A stretch of 64,000 nucleotides of DNA, taken from Gemmatimonadota bacterium. Lineage in GTDB: Bacteria; ARS69. Numbering within the stretch: position 1 is the first letter of the stretch; every line of letters starts with the position of its first letter. Of this stretch, positions 39,336 through 51,820 are shown in pieces. The notes beneath the pieces are model-generated. The model was given only the letters and a program-made list of their open reading frames with translations. It was not told where the DNA came from and searched no databases. The stretch is from positions 1-64,000 of the forward strand of contig JASLLL010000001.1 of assembly GCA_030747075.1 (NCBI GenBank), written 5' to 3'. The translations under genes and the position numbers were made by a program.

Positions 39336-40649
39336 ATGGAACCGACTCGCGTCCGGGACATTCTACTGATCGCCACGGCACTTGCCGGGCCGGGATGCTG
39401 CGGAGACAGCGACGCACCCTCTTCCGTGCGCCTTCTTCCCTTCCCGCCGCCCTTCCGCGCCGCGCTGGCGATCTCCAGCGACATCGACGATACCGAAACC
39501 GTGGAGGAGTTCCTGGCCATTCAGGACTTTCTCTGCGGGAGCGGGACCACGCCGCTCGGCCCCGGACTGGGCATGGAAGTCGGGAACAGCTTCTGGTTCT
39601 TCGACGCCACCGGCGCGACAGAGGTCGCATGGTTCTCGGACGATGCCGGGACACCGTCATTGGCGGCCACGACGCTGGAGGAGTTGATCGCCGCTGGGTT
39701 TGTGGATGTGCTGCACTCGTGGGGAGACTTCAGCGAGGGCGGTTTTCGTCGGGAGTATGCGGAGCGGGGTGCGCGGGAGCTGGCCGCGATCGAACAACGA
39801 ACCGGACGGCGCATTCGCGTCTGGGTAAACCACGGCAACCCGCGGAACTCGCAGAGCGTGGGGCCTCTTCCGTCACAACTCGGCGACAATCCGGAGTCGA
39901 GCGCGCACCACACGGACCTCCTGCGGGAGTGCGGCATCCGCTTCACGCACAAGTGGGAGGTCACGAGAACGGTCGGTCAGGACGCCGGACGAAGCGTGGG
40001 CGACTTTCTGCGCGCATGCGTGTCACAGGCCTGGTGGGCAGCCCGGAAACTCTGCGGTCGATTGCCGCGCGGAACGCGTCGTCCGTTCGCGGACAATGTA
40101 CTCCTTCACGCGGAAACGCTCGACGACGGCACGAGGTGGTTGTCGTTCAGACGGTACATCGGGCGGCGGCGCGGGATCTCGACCGGCGGCGCGGGGGTCG
40201 CGGAGCTCATCGCCCCGGAGATCCTGGACGACCTCACCGAGCGCGGGGGCGTCATGATCGTCTACACGCACCTCGGCGACAACGACGGCCCGCCGCGCTA
40301 CCTTCCGCCGGAAACCGTGCGAGCACTGCGTGGACTCGCCCGGAGAGCGCACGCGGGGGAGATACTCGTGGCGACGACTGCGCGAATCCTCGCCTGGACG
40401 GCTTCGAGGAACTTCCTTCGCTGGAGTGTGCGCGAAGATGCCGCGAGGACGGTGATCGAGATCGCGGGCTTCGACGATCCCGCTACGGGATTCCGGCAAC
40501 CCGATCCGGGAGAACTCGACGGGATCACCTTCGCGGTGAAAGATCCGTCACGCACGCGGATCACCGTATGCGGACAGGATGCGAAAGGTGTGGTCCGCAC
40601 GAAGAGTACGGTCGGCTTCCCGTGGGCCGCGCTGGAGTATCCGCGCTAG
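39336..40649 (+). CDS. Polysaccharide-deacetylase-like exported protein
   Basis: This encodes 437 residues. The N-terminus is hydrophobic and ends in a Cys pair (LAGPGCCGD), a possible lipobox. AALAISSDIDDTETVEEF resembles the first motif of NodB-type deacetylases (the D-D metal/base motif). WVNHGNPRNSQS and SAHHTDLLRECGI could supply the His ligands, and VMIVYTHLGDNDGPP fits a late-barrel motif. The family match is loose and the spacing unusual, so the assignment is tentative. It is divergent from the envelope operon, and its stop overlaps the stop of a convergent secreted-protein gene by 4 bp. Confidence 0.6.
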   Translation: MEPTRVRDILLIATALAGPGCCGDSDAPSSVRLLPFPPPFRAALAISSDIDDTETVEEFLAIQDFLCGSGTTPLGPGLGMEVGNSFWFFDATGATEVAWFSDDAGTPSLAATTLEELIAAGFVDVLHSWGDFSEGGFRREYAERGARELAAIEQRTGRRIRVWVNHGNPRNSQSVGPLPSQLGDNPESSAHHTDLLRECGIRFTHKWEVTRTVGQDAGRSVGDFLRACVSQAWWAARKLCGRLPRGTRRPFADNVLLHAETLDDGTRWLSFRRYIGRRRGISTGGAGVAELIAPEILDDLTERGGVMIVYTHLGDNDGPPRYLPPETVRALRGLARRAHAGEILVATTARILAWTASRNFLRWSVREDAARTVIEIAGFDDPATGFRQPDPGELDGITFAVKDPSRTRITVCGQDAKGVVRTKSTVGFPWAALEYPR

Positions 40650-42193
40650 GGGATTCGGACGACCTTGCGGGTCTCGGTTGCGCCGTCTCTCAGCAGGCGC
40701 AGGAAGTAGCTTCCGGCAGCCGAAGGCCGCCCGGAGTCGTCGCGGCCGTCCCAGACGAAGGGGTGGTTCCCCGCCGCGAACACCCCCGACGCCAGAGTAC
40801 GAACGCGCTGCCCGGCCGCGTTGTGGACCCTCAGTTCGATCTTCGCGGGGGCTCGAATGGAGACTTCCACACGAGTGCTCGCGGAAAACGGGCTGGGCCT
40901 CGCAAGCCCGAGTGCGGCGTCCCCGGGGGGAAGCGAAGCGCTTTCGACGCCCGTGGCGACCGGTTCTGAGAATCCGGCCGCATAGACCTCCCGGTTCCCG
41001 TCCCGCGTGTCGGTCCAGACGCACTCCATGCCTCGCGCGGGGTCCGGTTGGCTCCACTTGTGCCAGGAAGCAAGCGTCGGCACCGAGGAGAACGCCCCCG
41101 CTCCACCGGGGGAAACCTCCACCGGCAGGTCCGGGGTTCCCGGGTCCAGATAGAGAACGGTCGATTCCCCATTCGGGCGATCGTCTTCTTCCCACGCGAC
41201 CACCATGTGCGGACACCAGGTGTACCCGAAGATGTACGGGACCCAAGTGTACACGGTGGCGACGGTCGGGTGGCGCGAAACGCTCGGCGTTGTCACGAGC
41301 GGCGACGGACTCCCCCACCAGCCGGAATCCCCCACGATCATGAAGATGTCGCGCGTGGATGCCCGGTCATCTTCCCAGGCGACGCCCGTGCGGAGGAAGA
41401 TGGCATCCGTGCAGGTGTTCCATTTCATCCATGCGGACGGGTGGCGCGAATCACCGGAGTCATGGGTGAGACGCGTCTCGGCCATCCAGTTCATCCCGTC
41501 GAAGATCCGCGCGTAGATCTCGCGGTTGCCGTCGCGATCATCCTCCCATGCAACCAGCACGGCATCCCCCGCGCCCGTCCATGAACCGGGGGACGCGACC
41601 GACGCATACGCGGACACGCCCTCCGACACGGACACGCGCGTTCGCGCTCCCCAGCTGCCGTCTGTCTCCCACAACGCGTGGTAGATCTCGCGGTTGCCGT
41701 CGGAGGTCTCCTCCCAGACGAGATTCCCTGCAGGCTGGTCGAGGGCAGGACGGGCGGACTCGTGTGCATCGCAGGTGAGACAAGTGTCGGGCGACCACGC
41801 GCTTCCCGGCAGGCGACGGGTCGCGTAGATTTCCCGACGCCCCGAGCGGTCATCCTCCCAGACGACGCGCACCTCCCCCGACTCCGTACACCCCACCGCC
41901 GGGTGGCGCGATGCCCCCGGGTCGGTGGTGAGTCGCTCCACCGCGCTCCAGGCCCCGCCGGTTCGCTCCCGGTAGAGGATCTCCGCGTTTCCGTGCCGGT
42001 CGTCGCTCCATACCACCAGAAGCGAGTCCCGCGAAGACCACGCGTTGCGGCCGCCGTCCACTTCCGTGTCGGAGTATCCCGGATCGTTGGTGACGCGCAC
42101 CGGAGGGTCGAACACCGCCGCGGGTGCCGCAATGGCCCCCAGCATCGACACGATTGCAAGGAGTCCGTAGAGGGGTCGTTCGTGATGCTTCAT
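40646..42193 (-). CDS. Secreted BNR/sialidase-like repeat protein with FlgD-type tail
   Basis: This encodes 515 residues. A signal peptide covers residues 1-26. Residues 30-370 hold about six repeats of the form VxWEDDRxGNREIYAR, spaced 50-60 residues apart, giving a beta-propeller like those with BNR/Asp-box repeats. No sialidase catalytic Arg triad or Glu can be assigned. Residues about 430-515 are the FlgD-like sorting tail (LRVHNAAGQRVRTLASGVFA, WDGRDDSGRPSAAGSYFLRL, ending KVVRIP). It is likely a surface-exposed binding protein. Its stop overlaps the convergent deacetylase-like gene by 4 bp. The next minus-strand gene upstream stops 17 bp before its start, so the two may be co-transcribed. 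Confidence 0.78.
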   Translation of the reverse strand: MKHHERPLYGLLAIVSMLGAIAAPAAVFDPPVRVTNDPGYSDTEVDGGRNAWSSRDSLLVVWSDDRHGNAEILYRERTGGAWSAVERLTTDPGASRHPAVGCTESGEVRVVWEDDRSGRREIYATRRLPGSAWSPDTCLTCDAHESARPALDQPAGNLVWEETSDGNREIYHALWETDGSWGARTRVSVSEGVSAYASVASPGSWTGAGDAVLVAWEDDRDGNREIYARIFDGMNWMAETRLTHDSGDSRHPSAWMKWNTCTDAIFLRTGVAWEDDRASTRDIFMIVGDSGWWGSPSPLVTTPSVSRHPTVATVYTWVPYIFGYTWCPHMVVAWEEDDRPNGESTVLYLDPGTPDLPVEVSPGGAGAFSSVPTLASWHKWSQPDPARGMECVWTDTRDGNREVYAAGFSEPVATGVESASLPPGDAALGLARPSPFSASTRVEVSIRAPAKIELRVHNAAGQRVRTLASGVFAAGNHPFVWDGRDDSGRPSAAGSYFLRLLRDGATETRKVVRIP

Positions 42194-42210: not shown

Positions 42211-43020
42211 CTAGTCCAGCCCGCGCTCCTTCAGGTCGTCCTCGTCCCAGCCGAGATGGTGGCCGATCTCGTGAAGAACGGTGGTGCGGATCTCGTTCTC
42301 CAGGGTTTCGCGATCGGTCGCAAAGCGTTCCAGATTGTTCTGGAAGAGGTGGATTGTGTTGGGAAGCGTTCCCGTGTCGGACACGGACTGATCGACAAGG
42401 CTCGTTCCCTGAAAAAGCCCGAGTATCTGCGGATCAAGCGGGGGGGCATCCAGCGTGAGGAGATCATCCGGAGGAATGGGCTGTACGAAAAGCGAGGTGT
42501 TCTCCATGACCTTGAGAACTTCGGGGTCCAGACCCGCGACGACTTCCTCCGCCACCTGAAGGAACTCCTCTTCGGACATTTCGTACGGCTCCGGGAACAC
42601 CTCCGGATCGAGACGCCGTGCCTGGGCGAAGGCGACCACCGCCAGCGAGTCATCACCCGCACGCTCCGCAAGAAGGCCGCGAAGCTGGTGGGCGTCGGCC
42701 AGTTCCGGATCCGCCTCCAGGGCAGCCACGAGCTGCTCTCCGCACTCCGCAAACTTCCCCGCTCGGAAGAGCGCCCACCCCAGCGCGGAGTGGCCTTCCG
42801 CCCACTCTTCGGTGCCCTCCACCGCGCGACGGAGTTCCGCTTCGGCAGCCACCACCTCTCCACAGTCGAGCAGCGCGATCCCGAGCAGATAGCGGAGTTC
42901 CGGATCGTCCTCGCTTTCGTTCAGTGCGCCCAGTGCGGCAGCCGCTGCCTCCCCGGAGCGGCCCGCCGTCAGGAGCGCCCAGATCTCGTCCCAGAGAGTC
43001 GCACTGCGGTTGGCCACCAT
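42211..43020 (-). CDS. TPR protein fused to a minimal zincin metallopeptidase domain
   Basis: This encodes 269 residues from the ATG at 43020, which has GGAGGT six bases before it; longer readings add a low-complexity Arg-rich lead. Residues 5-140 are TPR-like helical repeats (ELRYLLGIALLDCGEVVAAE; GHSALGWALFRAGKFAECGE). Residues 155-269 match the small zincin family (DUF1025/MpnZ-like), with LFQNNLERFATDRETLENEI and the zinc motif HEIGHHLGWDEDDL (HEIGH at 250-254). The family usually stands alone at about 115-130 residues, so the TPR fusion is notable. It appears cytosolic, with no signal peptide. Substrate and function are unknown. Confidence 0.8.
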   Translation of the reverse strand: MVANRSATLWDEIWALLTAGRSGEAAAAALGALNESEDDPELRYLLGIALLDCGEVVAAEAELRRAVEGTEEWAEGHSALGWALFRAGKFAECGEQLVAALEADPELADAHQLRGLLAERAGDDSLAVVAFAQARRLDPEVFPEPYEMSEEEFLQVAEEVVAGLDPEVLKVMENTSLFVQPIPPDDLLTLDAPPLDPQILGLFQGTSLVDQSVSDTGTLPNTIHLFQNNLERFATDRETLENEIRTTVLHEIGHHLGWDEDDLKERGLD

Positions 43021-43111: not shown

Positions 43112-43291
43112 TTACTTGTCCGCGACATCCTCGTACTTTAGCGAGTCACGCCCGTCGAGCTTGCTGAATCGAAAAGCCGGCTTCGGCCCCTTCTTGAGTG
43201 TGCCCTTTGCCGCGCCGTCTTCGGGTGTACGAACGCCGTCTTCTCTCTCTTCGGGAACTTCCTGTCGGGAGTGCTTCTCTTTCTCGGTCAT
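43112..43291 (-). CDS. 59-residue peptide coupled to the radical SAM gene (candidate RiPP precursor)
   Basis: This short gene has its ATG (43291) overlapping the radical SAM stop by 4 bp (ATGA), with GGAG six bases upstream, and it ends with TAA at 43112. The N-terminal 35 residues are very rich in Glu/Lys/Arg/Asp and look like a soluble leader (MTEKEKHSRQEVPEE). The C-terminal part is short and more aromatic: KPAFRFSKLDGRDSLKYED, with F40, F42 and Y53. There is no Cys or Trp. No known family is recognised. Because the preceding enzyme has a PqqD-like peptide-binding domain, I infer that this may be its peptide substrate. It could equally be an unrelated small cytosolic protein. Confidence 0.65.
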   Translation of the reverse strand: MTEKEKHSRQEVPEEREDGVRTPEDGAAKGTLKKGPKPAFRFSKLDGRDSLKYEDVADK

Positions 43292-45507
43292 GCGTGACTC
43301 CTTTCTCTGGCCGCCTCCAGTATGAGGCCTTCGGCCGCCAGCGCTTTCAGAAAACTGCCCGCGTCCGCACGGATCGCGGGGTCCAGGCCCTGAAGAACTT
43401 CCTGAGTGGTGCGGTCACCGCGACACGACGCCAGCAGTTCCGCCCCTTCCGGCGACAGACACGCCACTTCGCCGGAACGCGGATCCAGCACGAGTACCGC
43501 CTTCGACGGAGCGATCGGTGAAACCGTCCGGTCCAGCGTCTCCAGCACTTCGCCGCTGATCAGGTCGAACTGGTAGCGCGGCAGCGTCAGTCCATCGGTG
43601 GCCGCCTCCAATGCGGTGTCCACTTCATCGCGATCGAAACGAATGGGAAGAACGCGAAGCCCTGCCGCTGCCGAGGGACGATCCGGAAGGCCGCCGGGCG
43701 CCGACCGCTCCCGGAACGCCCCCTCCATCAGCGCGTCGACGCTTCCCGCCTTCACGAGGTAAAGGAAGTAGTGGGACTTCAGTTCGTGATAGAGAACATT
43801 CCGATTCTGAAAGACCGGCAGGTGGCTCTTGAGGCGGCGCAGCATCTCCATGTACATCCGGCGCGCACGCGCGCGGTCCATTCCGCTGCCGGTTCGGAAG
43901 TCGTGGTAGATCTGGAGATCCGTGCTCTCTTCTGGGAACACCTCGGCGATGTCAAAGTCCTTCGGTCGGCGAAACACCTCGGACTTGTAGTCGAGATAGA
44001 ACACGCGAAGGCTGACCTCTTCGAAATAGCGGCTGTTCTCCACCAGCGTGTTCAGCGTGAGTTGCGCTTCCTCTTCCGTCTCGGTGGGGAACCCGACCAT
44101 GACATAGAGAGTGACGGAGATGCCTGCATCATGGACTCGACGGATGACCTCCATGCCAAGCTCCGGATCCGACCCCTTGCACATGAGATCGAGAACGCGG
44201 CGGCTCGCGGATTCGTATCCGAAAGCCAGGCGGCGACACCCGGCCTCGGCAAGTTGCGCGCAGACCTCCGGGGTGAACACCTCCGGTTCGAGCTTGGCGT
44301 CGCACCACCAGTCGATATCGAGATTCGCCTCCAGAAGCGCTTCGGGAAGACGGCGCACCATGCTCGGCGGGAGGTCTTCGATGGGGAAGTAGAAGTGCCG
44401 GGACCCCCAGCGCTCCTTGAGGAAAGCGATGTCCTCCACCGTCTTTTCGATCGAGCGACCCCGATAGCCGGGGCCGATCACTTCATGAAGCGTGCAGAAC
44501 ACGCACTTGCCCCAGTAGCACCCTCGTGTGATCGCCAGCGGAATGATGAACTCCGGCGAGAAGTACAGGTCCAGCGGCATCCCCTCGAAGTCCGGCGTCG
44601 GGAGTGAATCGATGGGAAGCGGTTCGATGCGCGGGTTCGAACAGACTTCGCCGTCAGGGTTGCGGAAGATGATGTTCGGGATGTTCTCAATGGTGGCGCA
44701 GGTGGCGATCGCTTCGGCGATTTGCGAGAACGGCCGCTCCCCCTCCAGGACGACGAGCGTGTCAAGGAGATCGAACACATCGGGGCGCTTCGCGAGTTTC
44801 TCGCCCAGGTAGGCAACCAGTCCGCCCCCCACCGAGACATGCACTTCCGGCTTCCACTCCTTCAGCATGGCCGCAAGCGTGAGCGCGGGAATCGCCTGGC
44901 TTGCAAAGGTAAGCGAGATCCCGACGAGGTCCGGGTTGAGTGCGCGAATCTGAGGCATCGTGACTTCGCGGAAGAACTCGATGAATGGATTCCCTTCCGC
45001 GTCTGCGGCCCCTGCCAGGAGGTCGTCTGTTCGCTGCACCGAGTGGCGCATGGAGAATCCGTGCGGCGTAAAAGAGGTGGGGTGATGTTCCGCACTCACG
45101 AGCGCCAGTCCATGCTCGATACAGCGCGCAGCCCGCGTGTACTCCTCGTAGTCGTAGAAGCGATCGGGGTCGCGCAGGGCCGCCTTCGCGTCTTCGATCT
45201 CCTCCACGACCCAGTCGCCGGCGACTTCCGCCTGCGTGAAGCTCCGGTACGCGGACATCTCCGCGTAACCGAGGTGGGCGCGCGACTCCAGCTGGCGGAG
45301 ACGCCCGGACATGCGAATGCGATCGAGCGACTGAGACAATCGCGACCGGGAAAGAAAGTAGTGGCAGGCCTCGATGTTCGCGTCCATGACATGGGTGTCA
45401 GGGAAGCCTTCCTGTCGCAGGTAGGCGGCCAATGTGGGGAGCGCGAGGTAAGGCTGCGTGAAGTGCGCCTGGGGCGGAAAGAGAAGAAGCGTACGCATGC
45501 TGTTCAT
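43288..45507 (-). CDS. B12-binding-type radical SAM enzyme with C-terminal PqqD-like (RRE) domain
   Basis: This encodes 739 residues. The N-terminal 280 residues resemble a cobalamin-binding Rossmann domain (TLLLFPPQAHFTQPYLALPT; PDLVGISLTFASQAIPALTL; VSVGGGL), but no DxHxxG motif is seen. The radical SAM core begins with RGCYWGKCVFC (C330, C335, C338), so four residues rather than three separate the first two Cys. FGYESASRRVLDLMCKGSD and VTLYVMVGFPTETEEEA follow, as expected. Residues about 660-735 (LVLDPRSGEVACLSPEGAEL, then FLKALAAEGLILE) match the PqqD fold, the RiPP-precursor recognition element. It is coupled by 4-bp overlaps to a CRTAC1 protein upstream and a 59-residue peptide downstream. 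Confidence 0.85.
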   Translation of the reverse strand: MNSMRTLLLFPPQAHFTQPYLALPTLAAYLRQEGFPDTHVMDANIEACHYFLSRSRLSQSLDRIRMSGRLRQLESRAHLGYAEMSAYRSFTQAEVAGDWVVEEIEDAKAALRDPDRFYDYEEYTRAARCIEHGLALVSAEHHPTSFTPHGFSMRHSVQRTDDLLAGAADAEGNPFIEFFREVTMPQIRALNPDLVGISLTFASQAIPALTLAAMLKEWKPEVHVSVGGGLVAYLGEKLAKRPDVFDLLDTLVVLEGERPFSQIAEAIATCATIENIPNIIFRNPDGEVCSNPRIEPLPIDSLPTPDFEGMPLDLYFSPEFIIPLAITRGCYWGKCVFCTLHEVIGPGYRGRSIEKTVEDIAFLKERWGSRHFYFPIEDLPPSMVRRLPEALLEANLDIDWWCDAKLEPEVFTPEVCAQLAEAGCRRLAFGYESASRRVLDLMCKGSDPELGMEVIRRVHDAGISVTLYVMVGFPTETEEEAQLTLNTLVENSRYFEEVSLRVFYLDYKSEVFRRPKDFDIAEVFPEESTDLQIYHDFRTGSGMDRARARRMYMEMLRRLKSHLPVFQNRNVLYHELKSHYFLYLVKAGSVDALMEGAFRERSAPGGLPDRPSAAAGLRVLPIRFDRDEVDTALEAATDGLTLPRYQFDLISGEVLETLDRTVSPIAPSKAVLVLDPRSGEVACLSPEGAELLASCRGDRTTQEVLQGLDPAIRADAGSFLKALAAEGLILEAARERSHA

Positions 45508-47255
45508 CGGGTGCCCCGGGTCTCGAAGGCGGGAGAAGGTTCGACAATGGTGAGAACTCGATCCACGGGCACGCCTTCAACAACCGCCACGCTGCCGGAG
45601 GGCCAGCGCACTTCCACGCGATCCACCCACGCCGTCCCGCCAAGGCCAAAGCGCGTGCGCGGGTCGTGGGACGAGTAGATGCCCTGATTCGGCAGAACCC
45701 ACGCCGTGCGTGTCCGGCCACCCGCCGTCACGCGAACCCGTGCGCCGTAGGAGTCGCGGTTGCTCTTCGTGCCCTTGGGGAGAACGGCAATCCAGTGCCC
45801 CTGTGCACGCGTACGGTTCTCAAGAAGTCGCGGTCGGGAATCCATGTCGACGATGAGTAGATCGAGATCCCCGTCCTCATCCGCATCGGCGACCGCAACG
45901 CCGCGACTGGACTTCAAGACCGCCATCGGACCCGCCGGATCGAAGAGAACTTCCCGGAAGTGCGGCGGCTCCCCGGGGAAGGTCTCGTTCAAGAAGAACT
46001 GGTCCGGCATCTCCCAGGGAGACAGACCGATCGCGGGTCCGTCCGGGTAAACATGGCCGTTCGCGACAAAGAGATCGAGATCGCCATCGAACTCCACATC
46101 CAGGAAGGCGCATCCCCAGCCGAGTCGGTCGATCACAGGTTCGTGCAACCCGGCGGCAGCCCCTTCGTCGGTGAAGAACCCGTGGCCGTCGTTGATGTAG
46201 AGGTTGTTCGGTTCGGTGTCGAAGTTGGTGACATAGAGATCCGGGTCGCCGTCGTCGTCGATGTCCGAAACGGCGATTCCCATCCCCGCCTGAAACCGAC
46301 CGTTCGCTCCGCGCGCGAATCCGCGTGCCTCTCCCTCTTCGGCAAAGTGCCCGCCGCCCCGATTCATGAAGAGGTTGTTCGCCTGCGCATCATTCGCGAC
46401 GAGAAGATCCAGCCAACCGTCCTCGTCTACATCACAAAAGACCGCGCCATAGGAGCAGAGCGGCTTCTCAAGGAGCAGGCCGCGTGCCTTGGCGGATTCG
46501 GTGAAGTGACCGGTCCCGTCGTTTACGAAAAGCGCGTTGGCCTCTCCGATGTTGATGCCGGGGTTTTCGGCTTCCGGACCCCACATGACCGCGACCCCCT
46601 CGATCATGAGAGGCTCGCCGCCCGCGGGCGGGTTCAGGGGATCGAACACGACATACGATGCCACGAAGAGATCCAGGTCGCCGTCGTTGTCGATGTCGCC
46701 AAACGCCGCGCGCGCGCTCCAGCGATCGCTGGCGGCTCCGCGCGGAACTCCCTCGGAGGCGAAGGTTCCGTCGCCCTGATTTACATAGAATGCGTCCTGA
46801 CCGAGATTCGCCACATAGAGGTCCGGGTCGCCGTCGTTGTCGATGTCGCCGACCGCACACCCGTTCCCCCATCCGCGGTCACCGACTCCCGCCTTCTCCG
46901 TCACATCGGTGAAGCGCCAGTCGCCGTCGTTCCGATAGAGGCGGTTTGCCGCGTCCGGGAGGTAGCGAAGCCGTGCGCCACCGTCTATCGCCTCAATCCC
47001 GTTTCCGTTGACCATGTAGATGTCGAGATCTCCGTCCCCGTCGTAGTCCAGCCAGGCGGCTCCACACCCGTTGCTCTCGGGGATGAACATTCGGTCCCCC
47101 CCGCACAGGTTTGGAACGGTGAGGCCAGCCTCCACCGCGCGGTCCACAAAGACCGGCTGGGCCGCGACGGGACGAAAGGGTAGAAACGCGAAGAGAAGAA
47201 GCGGCACGACCCGGGACAGGCGCTCCGGAAGTGGGGGGGAAATGCAGGCTGACAT
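45504..47255 (-). CDS. Secreted CRTAC1-like protein (FG-GAP/VCBS repeats, ASPIC/UnbV domain)
   Basis: This encodes 583 residues from the ATG at 47255; a longer reading adds 92 residues that lie before the signal peptide. The signal peptide reads SRVVPLLLFAFLPFRPVAAQ. About seven FG-GAP/VCBS repeats of the type DIDNDGDPDLYVANLGQDAF follow; they fold as a propeller and bind calcium through the D-x-D-x-D-G loops. The last 90 residues (ENRTRAQGHWIAVLPKGTKS; VRVTAGGRTRTAWV; RVEVRWPSGSVAVVEG) are the ASPIC/UnbV domain. It is a presumed extracellular binding protein. It is the first gene of the three-gene unit with the radical SAM enzyme. Confidence 0.88.
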   Translation of the reverse strand: MSACISPPLPERLSRVVPLLLFAFLPFRPVAAQPVFVDRAVEAGLTVPNLCGGDRMFIPESNGCGAAWLDYDGDGDLDIYMVNGNGIEAIDGGARLRYLPDAANRLYRNDGDWRFTDVTEKAGVGDRGWGNGCAVGDIDNDGDPDLYVANLGQDAFYVNQGDGTFASEGVPRGAASDRWSARAAFGDIDNDGDLDLFVASYVVFDPLNPPAGGEPLMIEGVAVMWGPEAENPGINIGEANALFVNDGTGHFTESAKARGLLLEKPLCSYGAVFCDVDEDGWLDLLVANDAQANNLFMNRGGGHFAEEGEARGFARGANGRFQAGMGIAVSDIDDDGDPDLYVTNFDTEPNNLYINDGHGFFTDEGAAAGLHEPVIDRLGWGCAFLDVEFDGDLDLFVANGHVYPDGPAIGLSPWEMPDQFFLNETFPGEPPHFREVLFDPAGPMAVLKSSRGVAVADADEDGDLDLLIVDMDSRPRLLENRTRAQGHWIAVLPKGTKSNRDSYGARVRVTAGGRTRTAWVLPNQGIYSSHDPRTRFGLGGTAWVDRVEVRWPSGSVAVVEGVPVDRVLTIVEPSPAFETRGTR

Positions 47256-47669
47256 GTCTCGATCCCGTTTGTGTGTGGGCGGAAACCACCCGTGGGGCCT
47301 TCGCCCGGCACCGTATCCGACGCGGGAAGCGGGGTCAACAAAGTGCCGGGCAGCAGGGGGTGGTTGTGCGGTGAGAGGCGGCCTCAGGCCATTTTCCACC
47401 GGTGTTGCGAAGAGTGTGGGTGGCCCGGAGACGGCACTTCCGACACTGCCAGCCCCGCCACAAGCCTGCCATTCTGGCAGCGTCGTGCCCGACTCGCTGT
47501 CCGGCACCCGATCCTTCGCGCAGCCCACCACGCCTGGCCGCTACCGTAACTCGTGGCCTGTTCGTATCTTACCGGACACCTGCCGCCCTCTTCCCCTTTC
47601 GGCACGACCCTTGCGAGGTCCTCCGCCGACATATTCCGTCACCCTACCTGTCCAACCGGAGGGAATCTC
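47256..47669. other. Divergent intergenic region between the CRTAC1 gene and dnaK
   Basis: These 414 bp contain no convincing gene. On the plus strand, CTTGCGA, 13 bp, then CATATT, about 25-55 bp before the dnaK ATG, loosely resembles a heat-shock (sigma32) promoter. No CIRCE element (TTAGCACTC-N9-GAGTGCTAA) is present. GGAGGG precedes the dnaK ATG. Confidence 0.4.
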
Positions 47670-49611: not shown

Positions 49612-49637
49612 GGCCGGATGCCTTGCGGTGTCCGGCC
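49612..49637 (+). terminator. Hairpin terminator after dnaK
   Basis: GGCCGGA (49612-49618) pairs with TCCGGCC (49631-49637), with two further G-C pairs inside and a TTGC loop, 26 bp after the dnaK stop. The following T-run is weak. Confidence 0.55.
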
Positions 49638-49660
49638 CTCCTGCGCGGGTGTGCGCCGGT

Positions 49661-49688
49661 TTCGCCTGGCCGCCAACCCTGCTATACT
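49661..49688 (+). promoter_or_regulatory. Extended -10 promoter of the PHP-domain gene
   Basis: TTCGCC (49661-49666), a 16-bp spacer and TATACT (49683-49688), with an upstream TG giving TGCTATACT, are present 71 bp before the ATG at 49760. The nonamer is identical to the one before the beta-helix gene. Confidence 0.5.
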
Positions 49689-49759
49689 GTTCGCAGATCA
49701 TCTCCCCCAGCACCCCGGATCCGCATCACGCCACGAGGCGGCGGAAGGAGAACTCCCTG

Positions 49760-51820
49760 ATGACTTCCCGAGTTGTGCGCCCGTTGCTCATCGCGGCTCT
49801 TCTTGCTGCTGCCGCCCAGGCCAACGCCCAGTACACGCTGTACTATGGGAACTTCCACAGCCACTGCAGCCTCTCCGACGACGCGGCCGGGTCCGGGACG
49901 CCTGCGGAGGCGTTCCAGTACGCTCGCGACACGGCGGGAATCGATGTGCTGGCGCTGACGGATCACACGCACTACATGTCCACCTACGAATACAACACGC
50001 TCCGAACCGACGCCACCACCTACACGCAAAACGGAGTCTTCGTCGCGATCGCCGCGCAGGAGCACGGCAGCCTTTCAACGAGCGCGTCCGGGGCCTTCGG
50101 GCACATGAACATCTACGACTCCATCTCTCTCATCCCGCAGTACGATAACGGCACGGACTATCGGTACAACCTGCTCGGCACCTACTCCTGGATAGCCACC
50201 CGCACCGACGCCACCTCGGGGGCGCCGCTTGTAGGGACATTCAATCACCCGTACAGCACCGGTGGCGCCGGGATCTGGGCACGGTTCCAGGACTTCACCT
50301 ACAGCACGACCGGAGACATGGGCGTTCAGTTCATTGAGGTGCTGAACGGGAAACGCAGTTCCGCCTACGAGCCGGAGTACTTCGACTGCCTGTCCAAAGG
50401 CTGGCATGTCGGCGCACTCGGAAATCAGGACAATCACCAGGGCGAGTGGGGTGATCAGGTCAACAATGTCGGCAACATACCGCTCACGGGAATCTGGGCG
50501 CCGGCACTCACGAAGGCGGACATCCTCCAGGCGCTGGCGAACCGACGCACCTACGCCATGGAAGTGGATCCGGTGACCGACCGCATCTCGGTGGAGTTCC
50601 GCATGGACGGAAACTGGATGGGGTCGGAATACGGGTCCGCCGCGGACAGTCTTCAGGTGGAGGTCGTGGTTTCGGCCACCAACCCCGTCAGCAGCATCAA
50701 CCTCTTCCGGAACGGGATTCTTGTGAAGTCCACGGGTACCGGCGGCTCGCCGTCGTACACATGGAACACTTACGACACACCCGGCCCCGGTGAGTTCTCC
50801 TATGTCGTGCGCGTCTCCCAGGCGGACGGCGATCGCGCGTGGACCAGCCCCATCTGGGTGTCGTCCACATCTTCGTTCACCACGCCGTTGGCGCAGGTCA
50901 ACGAGGACGACGCAAACGGGCTTCCCGTCATGTGGTTCCAGAATGTGATGGTGCAGGGAATCGTCACCGTGGATACAGACACGCTCGACACAACGGACAA
51001 TCTCTTCTACCTCCAGGACGATACCGGGGGCGTTCAGGTCTGGGAGGTCGGCGCACAGACAACGCCGGTCGCTCTCGGAGACAATGTCCTCGTCTCCGGA
51101 TTCGTGAACACCTACCAGGGGCAGACCGTCATCATCCCCTCGTCCGTCCAGATCCAAAACTCCGGCGCAACCTCCCCCACTCCGGTGGAACTCTCCACGG
51201 CAAGCCTCGCTGCGGGCGGCGAACTCTACGAAGGGCAACTCGCCGTTCTCCGCAATGTCTCCACCGTCTCCGGCAGCTGGCCCGCCGCGGACACCAGCAC
51301 CGTCGTGACCGTGGACGACGGATCCGGCCCGTGCGACCTCTTCATCGACGGGGACACCTCCTGGGATGAACTGGGTGCGCCCGTGGAACCCTTCTCCATT
51401 ACGGGGATTCTCTGGCAGGAAGACACCAGCATGCCGTATCTTTCCGGCCATCGGCTGACGCCGCGCTATGCGGAGGACATCGTCAACCAGACCGGTGTCA
51501 ACGACCCCGTCGCTCTGCCGAACCACCACAGCATTCACGGAACGCGCATCACCGACAACACGCCGAACCCGTTCCGGCCGGCGACCACGATTCGCTTCGA
51601 GATCGCAGGGTCCCGGGAGGTGGCTGCCTCACTCGCGGTGTATGACATCACCGGCCGACGCGTTCGCACGCTCGTGCAGAAGACCCTGCCCCCGGGTGAG
51701 TTCGAAATCCTCTGGAACGGACGGGACTCTGACGGCCGAAAGCTCGCTGCGGGCGTCTACTTCGCAAGACTTCAGGCGGAGGGCGTGGAGGATTCTCGGA
51801 AGATGGTGCTGCTGAAATAG
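49760..51820 (+). CDS. Secreted PHP-domain phosphoesterase-like protein with OB-fold and FlgD-type tail
   Basis: This encodes 686 residues from the ATG at 49760, with AAGGAG nine bases upstream. A signal peptide covers residues 1-23. The PHP (CehA/McbA-like) metal-binding motifs are FHSHCSLSD (H33, H35) and LALTDHTHYM (D68, H69, H71), with NHPYSTGG and NQDNHQGEW further on, enough for a metal-dependent hydrolase site. About residues 370-540 look like a YhcR/OB-fold domain (VMVQGIVTVDTDTLDTTDNL; GDNVLVSGFVNTYQG). The last 85 residues are the FlgD-like sorting tail (NTPNPFRP; WNGRDSDGRKLAAGVYFARL, ending VLLK). Role: an exported phosphoesterase, perhaps acting on nucleic acids or phosphate esters; substrate unknown. 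Confidence 0.82.
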   Translation: MTSRVVRPLLIAALLAAAAQANAQYTLYYGNFHSHCSLSDDAAGSGTPAEAFQYARDTAGIDVLALTDHTHYMSTYEYNTLRTDATTYTQNGVFVAIAAQEHGSLSTSASGAFGHMNIYDSISLIPQYDNGTDYRYNLLGTYSWIATRTDATSGAPLVGTFNHPYSTGGAGIWARFQDFTYSTTGDMGVQFIEVLNGKRSSAYEPEYFDCLSKGWHVGALGNQDNHQGEWGDQVNNVGNIPLTGIWAPALTKADILQALANRRTYAMEVDPVTDRISVEFRMDGNWMGSEYGSAADSLQVEVVVSATNPVSSINLFRNGILVKSTGTGGSPSYTWNTYDTPGPGEFSYVVRVSQADGDRAWTSPIWVSSTSSFTTPLAQVNEDDANGLPVMWFQNVMVQGIVTVDTDTLDTTDNLFYLQDDTGGVQVWEVGAQTTPVALGDNVLVSGFVNTYQGQTVIIPSSVQIQNSGATSPTPVELSTASLAAGGELYEGQLAVLRNVSTVSGSWPAADTSTVVTVDDGSGPCDLFIDGDTSWDELGAPVEPFSITGILWQEDTSMPYLSGHRLTPRYAEDIVNQTGVNDPVALPNHHSIHGTRITDNTPNPFRPATTIRFEIAGSREVAASLAVYDITGRRVRTLVQKTLPPGEFEILWNGRDSDGRKLAAGVYFARLQAEGVEDSRKMVLLK

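Follow-up and report, generated by a model that had tools for sequence, protein, structure and literature searches.

A B12-type radical SAM enzyme with a C-terminal RRE domain and a conserved partner peptide, centred on Planctomycetota and found in one Gemmatimonadota genome

A gene for a 739-residue radical SAM enzyme in a Gemmatimonadota genome runs directly into a gene of 59 codons, which raises the question of whether the small gene encodes a peptide on which the enzyme acts. The pair lies in a 64,000-nt stretch of a Gemmatimonadota bacterium (ARS69; assembly GCA_030747075.1, contig JASLLL010000001.1, positions 1-64,000), the whole of which is called the window here. The enzyme (43288..45507) and the candidate precursor peptide (43112..43291) are encoded on the minus strand, as are all features within them, and are joined by an ATGA in which the TGA of the enzyme sits within the ATG of the peptide. 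The peptide gene has its own Shine-Dalgarno sequence, AAAGGAG (43298..43304), located within the last codons of the enzyme and 6 nt from the ATG. An earlier note, made from the sequence, had described this overlap and ribosome-binding site and had assigned a B12-type domain, a radical SAM core and a PqqD-like domain to the enzyme. Both descriptions held, the PqqD-like part through Pfam, relatives and a structural model together.

Pfam searches identified a B12-binding domain at residues 184-263 (44719..44958; PF02310, 34.3 bits against a cutoff of 32.1) and a radical SAM core at residues 326-486 (44050..44532; PF04055, 69.3 bits), and both domains were found in all 26 close relatives. The cluster-binding cysteines, C330-x4-C335-x2-C338 (RGCYWGKCVFC; 44494..44520), have an unusual CX4CX2C spacing instead of the usual CX3CX2C, and this spacing was kept in 45 of 45 aligned relatives. 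A PRYQ motif directly ahead of the C-terminal domain (43570..43581) was invariant in 22 of 22 relatives. The fold of the whole enzyme was closest to OxsB, TsrM, MgmA, CysS and TokK. With both domains, the three-cysteine motif and TsrM, OxsB, CysS and TokK as structural neighbours, the protein has the features of a B12-dependent radical SAM enzyme; no SPASM domain was matched by Pfam in the window enzyme or its close relatives. The best NCBIfam matches were the B12-radical SAM families TIGR03975, ApyD, PhpK and HpnJ, all far under their cutoffs (113 bits against 281.85 for TIGR03975 and 83 against 750 for ApyD, NF050148).

The C-terminal domain (residues 672-729; 43321..43494) matched PqqD (PF05402) at 16 bits in the window enzyme, under the cutoff of 23.4. 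However, PF05402 was matched by 15 of the 26 close relatives and exceeded its cutoff at the same position in L096 (41.3 bits), L126 (39.7), L099 (33.4) and L094 (28.5); of the five non-planctomycete relatives that matched, four scored over the cutoff. Because a sequence-profile search of the PDB with this domain gave a sub-threshold match to the PbtF RRE alone (E 0.91), folds were compared. An AlphaFold model of the domain, built from 22 aligned sequences (pLDDT 86), was searched with Foldseek. The top match was TbiB1 with bound leader peptide, followed by another lasso B1 protein with leader; the RRE domains of LynD/TruD, PbtF and CteB matched more weakly, and 6jx3 was also among the matches. 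The best RRE match had a modest E value of 0.012, with a probability of 1.00. Since relatives matched PF05402 and RREs were the best solved matches of the model, the PqqD call stands despite the sub-cutoff score. The C-terminal domain is thus predicted to be an RRE fold, PqqD by sequence agreeing with RRE by fold, and its alignment with PqqD/RRE profiles, which the earlier note had anticipated, was obtained.

To determine how widely the enzyme occurs, 84,980 prokaryote genomes were scanned and the best 80 loci were kept. Among these were 29 full-length or near-full-length relatives with 40-66% identity, nearly all labelled Planctomycetota; one of them (L062) was 66% identical to the window enzyme over its full length. 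Below these 29, identity within the best 80 loci fell to about 35%, in Methanoperedens, Chloroflexota, Nitrospinota, Brocadia and Zixibacteria. Of five genomes from the phylum of the window, all in one family, the window's genome alone had the enzyme, and no relative was detected on viral contigs. An ORF of 50-72 aa followed the enzyme in almost all of the 29 loci, frequently with the same ATGA overlap.

In a survey of 392 Planctomycetota genomes, the RRE-bearing clade of the enzyme, set at 745 bits or more (the next group scored 523), was present in 37 (about 9%). The EDVADK peptide profile, A2, matched exactly the 12 genomes with a window-type enzyme (at least 1170 bits), and profile A6, which covers the TN[VI]FDK and RNIFDK tails, matched exactly the 20 genomes of the FDK clades; neither matched elsewhere in the 392. 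The 25 remaining RRE-clade enzymes were all counted with clade-specific partner tails, one two-peptide locus being cut by a contig end. Where the peptide seemed to be missing, it lay 1.3-6 kb off or, in G656, on a separate contig. A search with the peptide in 290 diverse genomes returned the window and one weak low-complexity match that was judged to be chance. The tail was also considered as a genome-wide tag; this was rejected, as each genome held one full copy of the peptide, at the enzyme. G392 has in addition a short tail fragment of 22 codons, SFKKIAPAYPKNSFDFEDVADK followed by a stop (L166; G392:C29:1335-1391), which has no ATG, lies away from the enzyme and is a decayed copy or a fragment.

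No such peptide adjoined the short enzymes of the family (about 600 aa, without the C-terminal domain), and A2 and A6 were absent from their genomes. Likewise, no small gene was recognisable beside the RRE-less planctomycete and Nitrospina enzymes, and no partner peptide beside the RRE-bearing enzymes of Dehalococcoidia, Methanoperedens and Zixibacteria. Small ORFs near the Nitrospina, Methanoperedens and Chloroflexota enzymes (0.7-3.5 kb searched) were dismissed as antisense shadow or unrelated. Because these distant enzymes have no recognisable small gene, the pairing belongs to one clade; it is a conserved system confined to that clade, and the earlier expectation of a small gene adjoining homologues of the enzyme holds there. 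The peptide ORF is a genuine coding sequence, as about 40 further loci have a homologue of it near the enzyme, the C-terminus being the most conserved part. As a separate observation, genome G009 (L035, L036, L037 and L038) encodes five or more paralogues from this family of B12-radical SAM enzymes that have no RRE domain; two are in tandem, and one adjoins TPR genes and further radical SAM genes.

The peptide consists of two unlike parts. Residues 1-37 (43181..43291) are charged, of low complexity and variable, with a column entropy of 2.53 bits and a pN/pS of 0.67; across loci, the first 35-40 residues vary and are rich in K, E, P, A, D and S. Residues 38-59 (43115..43180) form a conserved unit, a strand-like AFRFSKL followed by DGRDSLKYEDVADK, which we regard as a candidate recognition segment plus core. 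The unit closes with EDVADK (43115..43132), in which E54, A57, D58 and K59 were invariant in 22 of 22 sequences. Most members of the window's subclade end in F[RK][FY]x[KR][LI]DG[RQ]D[SP][LM]K[YF]EDVADK and most of the sister subclade in [YF]xFKIxPADPKNxFDFEDVADK, each directly before the stop codon. Mean entropy over the last 22 columns was 0.96 bits in the EDVADK peptides and 0.70 in the FDK peptides, compared with about 2.5 in earlier columns. Over 16 sister pairs picked on the enzyme tree, pN/pS was 0.18 for the last 20 codons and 0.67 for the remainder, which shows strong purifying selection on this end of the gene.

The earlier note had proposed to check whether the C-terminus is the most conserved part of homologues near the enzyme, and entropy, pN/pS and the roughly 40 other loci all indicate that it is. 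The end that the note delimited stopped at KYED, however, and so missed the residues that vary least (the peptide ends in KYEDVADK). Its description of a Cys-free and Trp-free end was accurate: neither residue occurs in any of the 37 aligned peptides (A2 and A6). The peptides matched no precursor family in Pfam or NCBIfam, those of the PqqA/MftA type included. The charged N-terminal 35 residues had been proposed as a leader, and this part of the proposal was not supported: the segment is variable (2.53 against 0.96 bits) and absent from the enzyme-peptide fusion described below. Conservation of the tail is the reverse of the variable core of antimicrobial type and is at odds with a sequence-specific leader in the N-terminal part.

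Peptide tails co-vary with enzyme clades. In the largest clade the peptide ends in PxETN[VI]FDK, and in the two aligned members of a Phycisphaerales-like clade in PKDRNIFDK. A five-genome clade has two peptides per locus, ending in GFTGQE[RM] and YG[RS]EDIADK, which were found at four loci, the fifth being at a contig end. When the enzyme tree was built with the C-terminal domain left out, the tail classes were monophyletic, with four changes, the minimum. Besides the simple pair, some operons combine two tandem B12-radical SAM genes with a single peptide and others one enzyme with two peptides; both arrangements are consistent with the peptide as a substrate.

In one metagenome-assembled genome, the enzyme and the tail are a single protein. 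At L076 (8181-8283), the enzyme runs in frame past the RRE into PAPKKYEFRILPADPKNAFEFEDAADK and the stop, and no free copy of the peptide was present in the genome. The fused segment is a 24-aa tail that includes the strand-like segment, whereas the variable N-terminal part is missing. The last 24 residues are therefore probably the functional unit of the peptide. In an AlphaFold model of the fusion, the enzyme was predicted with a pLDDT of 90.5, and the tail was disordered, mostly below 50, and docked on neither the RRE nor the active site; the unplaced tail is uninformative rather than negative. At another locus (L075:8202-9506), about 1.3 kb is inserted between enzyme and peptide, and the 3' end of the enzyme is duplicated before the peptide, so that the GGYADRRGAVAM frame occurs twice. 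This looks like a mobile or duplicated insertion.

Upstream of the enzyme, as the first member of a conserved three-gene unit, the window encodes a secreted FG-GAP / ASPIC-UnbV beta-propeller-type protein (45504..47531, minus strand), identified by Pfam and by its conserved homologues. Its ORF is listed from a GTG, the ATG at 47255 is the likelier start, and it has an ATGA overlap with the start of the enzyme. A homologue lay directly upstream of the enzyme in 20 of 24 relatives in the EDVADK clade. In three of the exceptions (L063, L065 and L066) a larger protein stands between the two, which in L063 has TPR and FG-GAP domains by Pfam; in the remaining one (L064) a contig end cuts the upstream side. 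The L063 unit is part of a larger cluster (L063:399-14193) that also encodes a TPR protein, a multihaem cytochrome (MtrC/C554-like) and several FG-GAP/ASPIC proteins. In the FDK clades, a second B12-radical SAM gene occupies the position of the ASPIC/UnbV gene. This gene (L200-L219) differs from the enzyme, and its C-terminus looks RRE-like by eye.

No peptidase or exporter near the pair was conserved across the neighbourhoods. After the peptide, the window encodes a TPR protein with a zincin-like metallopeptidase domain (PF06262; 42211-43128), not shared by other loci; its listed start overlaps the 3' end of the peptide gene, and a start near 43020 is likelier. A secreted protein at 40646-42193 has a C-terminal FlgD-like Ig domain (PF13860), of a kind often found at the end of proteins that are sorted to the cell surface, and the protein at 49628-51820 has an end that is similar by eye.

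None of the other four genomes from this family contained the three-gene unit (43288-47531 plus the peptide), and the window enzyme was nested within Planctomycetota on the tree. Contamination by a planctomycete contig was rejected, since the window's DnaK was 71-77% identical to that of the genome's own family, compared with 61-63% to Planctomycetota. These identities indicate a native contig, and the ASPIC/UnbV-enzyme-peptide unit was probably transferred whole into this genome by horizontal transfer.

To account for the gene pairing, the conserved tail, its co-variation with the enzyme and the RRE fold, we propose as the likely explanation an RRE-dependent B12-radical SAM system that modifies the C-terminal tail of the peptide and forms a RiPP-like family; binding, site of modification, chemistry and role are parts that we infer. 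The RRE domain would hold the partner peptide, and the most likely point of contact is the strand-like segment, which lies some 15-20 residues before the C-terminus. If the peptide is bound, this segment (AFRFSKL here, YVFKI or LDLxxLDLTVE elsewhere) is the likelier recognition site. The conserved C-terminus, LKYEDVADK, would then be offered by the RRE to the active site of the B12/radical SAM core and modified there. C-methylation, the reaction that B12-radical SAM enzymes most often catalyse, is one candidate. The variable N-terminal part may serve as a tether rather than as a sequence-specific leader. A tail that hardly varies within a clade and occurs in one copy per genome makes a diversified toxin a less likely product than a constant molecule or a modified small protein, whose role would be housekeeping or would resemble that of a cofactor or signal. 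Two features of an RRE-dependent RiPP system, a linked short precursor gene and an RRE/PqqD-fold domain, were found, whereas a processing peptidase or exporter, which does not define all RiPPs, was not found in the cluster; release of a mature product is therefore not apparent. The RRE-bearing Dehalococcoidia, Methanoperedens and Zixibacteria enzymes that have no recognisable partner, together with the modest Foldseek E value, count against this explanation. Of the RiPP-type pair originally suggested for the locus, the pairing, the RRE fold and the conserved Cys-free end are supported and the N-terminal leader is not.

The main rival, which we consider unlikely, is that the peptide is not a substrate but an obligate accessory (a plug, regulator or tether) of an enzyme that modifies something else, e.g., a lipid, a cofactor precursor or the ASPIC protein. 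It would explain a tail that is constant, always kept and in L076 fused to the enzyme, and it agrees with the lack of conserved processing genes and with the short RRE-less enzymes of the family, which act without a peptide, so the ancestral substrate may differ. However, RRE-fold domains bind peptide substrates in solved complexes, and loci with two tails for one enzyme or two enzymes for one tail suit substrates better than subunits. A doubtful further possibility is that the enzyme builds on the constant tail a new kind of cofactor or signal, derived from the peptide and used in the EDVADK clade by the secreted ASPIC/UnbV protein; this would extend PQQ-like logic beyond all known peptide cofactors.

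A classical RiPP, with the charged N-terminal 35 residues as leader and a C-terminal end released by cleavage as a secreted bioactive peptide, would match the order of the peptide parts, the lack of Cys and Trp and the TPR-zincin metallopeptidase gene adjoining in the window. We regard it as improbable, since the N-terminal part has no conserved motif (2.53 bits, pN/pS 0.67) and is missing in L076, the core is near-constant, unlike those of diversified antimicrobial RiPPs, and neither that metallopeptidase nor an exporter is conserved at other loci. It is very improbable that the peptide is a scaffold built on at its C-terminal Lys, with the radical enzyme tailoring the added group, in the manner of TglA, to whose C-terminus amino acids are added in 3-thiaglutamate synthesis (PMC9016710). 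The most invariant part is indeed the very C-terminus, with a free -DK in all ADK and FDK classes, but no ligase gene is conserved near the pair (it could be elsewhere) and, at the two-peptide loci, the GFTGQER tails have no terminal DK. Finally, although small ORFs are common in GC-rich DNA, a hitch-hiking or artefactual ORF is already refuted by the exact co-occurrence (12 of 12 and 20 of 20), purifying selection and co-variation of tail and enzyme.

The analysis points to an undescribed enzyme-modified peptide family centred on Planctomycetota, a phylum with, to our knowledge, almost no characterised RiPPs. In the open-access PMC literature we found no description of these peptides or of the system, and the main texts of RRE-Finder and its 2025 structure-based update make no mention of Planctomycetota or cobalamin enzymes. 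The system links B12-radical SAM chemistry with a fused C-terminal RRE and supplies natural experiments in substrate recognition: co-varying tails, two enzymes for one peptide, two peptides for one enzyme and an enzyme-substrate fusion. A cofactor or signal, as suggested by the constant tail, would be more surprising than another antibiotic.

Known systems resemble the pair in part. TIGR03975 (rSAM_ocin_1, a RiPP maturation radical SAM C-methyltransferase) and ApyD share the B12-binding domain, the radical SAM core and the RiPP context, but the enzyme described here, with its CX4CX2C motif, is a related branch of the superfamily and not a member. TsrM, CysS, OxsB and TokK have the nearest overall folds, yet are only 14-19% identical to it; TsrM acts on tryptophan for a RiPP antibiotic, and the substrates of OxsB, CysS and TokK are small molecules or carrier-bound. 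In borosins (OphMA type), the substrate forms the C-terminal tail of the modifying enzyme itself, as at L076; however, OphMA is an N-methyltransferase, and the fusion occurs here in L076 alone, a separate gene being otherwise normal. Sactipeptide and ranthipeptide enzymes need Cys in the core, whereas the core here is Cys-free (0 of 37 peptides) and no SPASM domain was matched, so the separation from both classes that had been drawn from the absence of Cys is upheld. Proteusin epimerases (OspD type), CteB, SkfB and SuiB are radical SAM enzymes with a fused RRE, as here, but do not bind B12; in the proteusin epimerases the RRE is C-terminal too (PMC8326336). The PQQ (PqqA/D/E) and mycofactocin (MftA/B/C) systems likewise combine a radical SAM enzyme, an RRE and one short, single-copy precursor, and conserve a product rather than diversity. 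Their radical SAM enzymes belong to the SPASM type and do not depend on B12, in contrast to the B12-type enzyme with a C-terminal RRE described here. The mycofactocin RRE, MftB, is a separate protein. The same is true of the PqqD RRE (PMC8326336). Downstream oxidase or peptidase genes are not conserved in our loci, and the tails are unrelated by inspection. In the constancy of its tail, the system is most like PQQ or mycofactocin, and in its working it is most like the RRE-dependent radical SAM RiPP systems.
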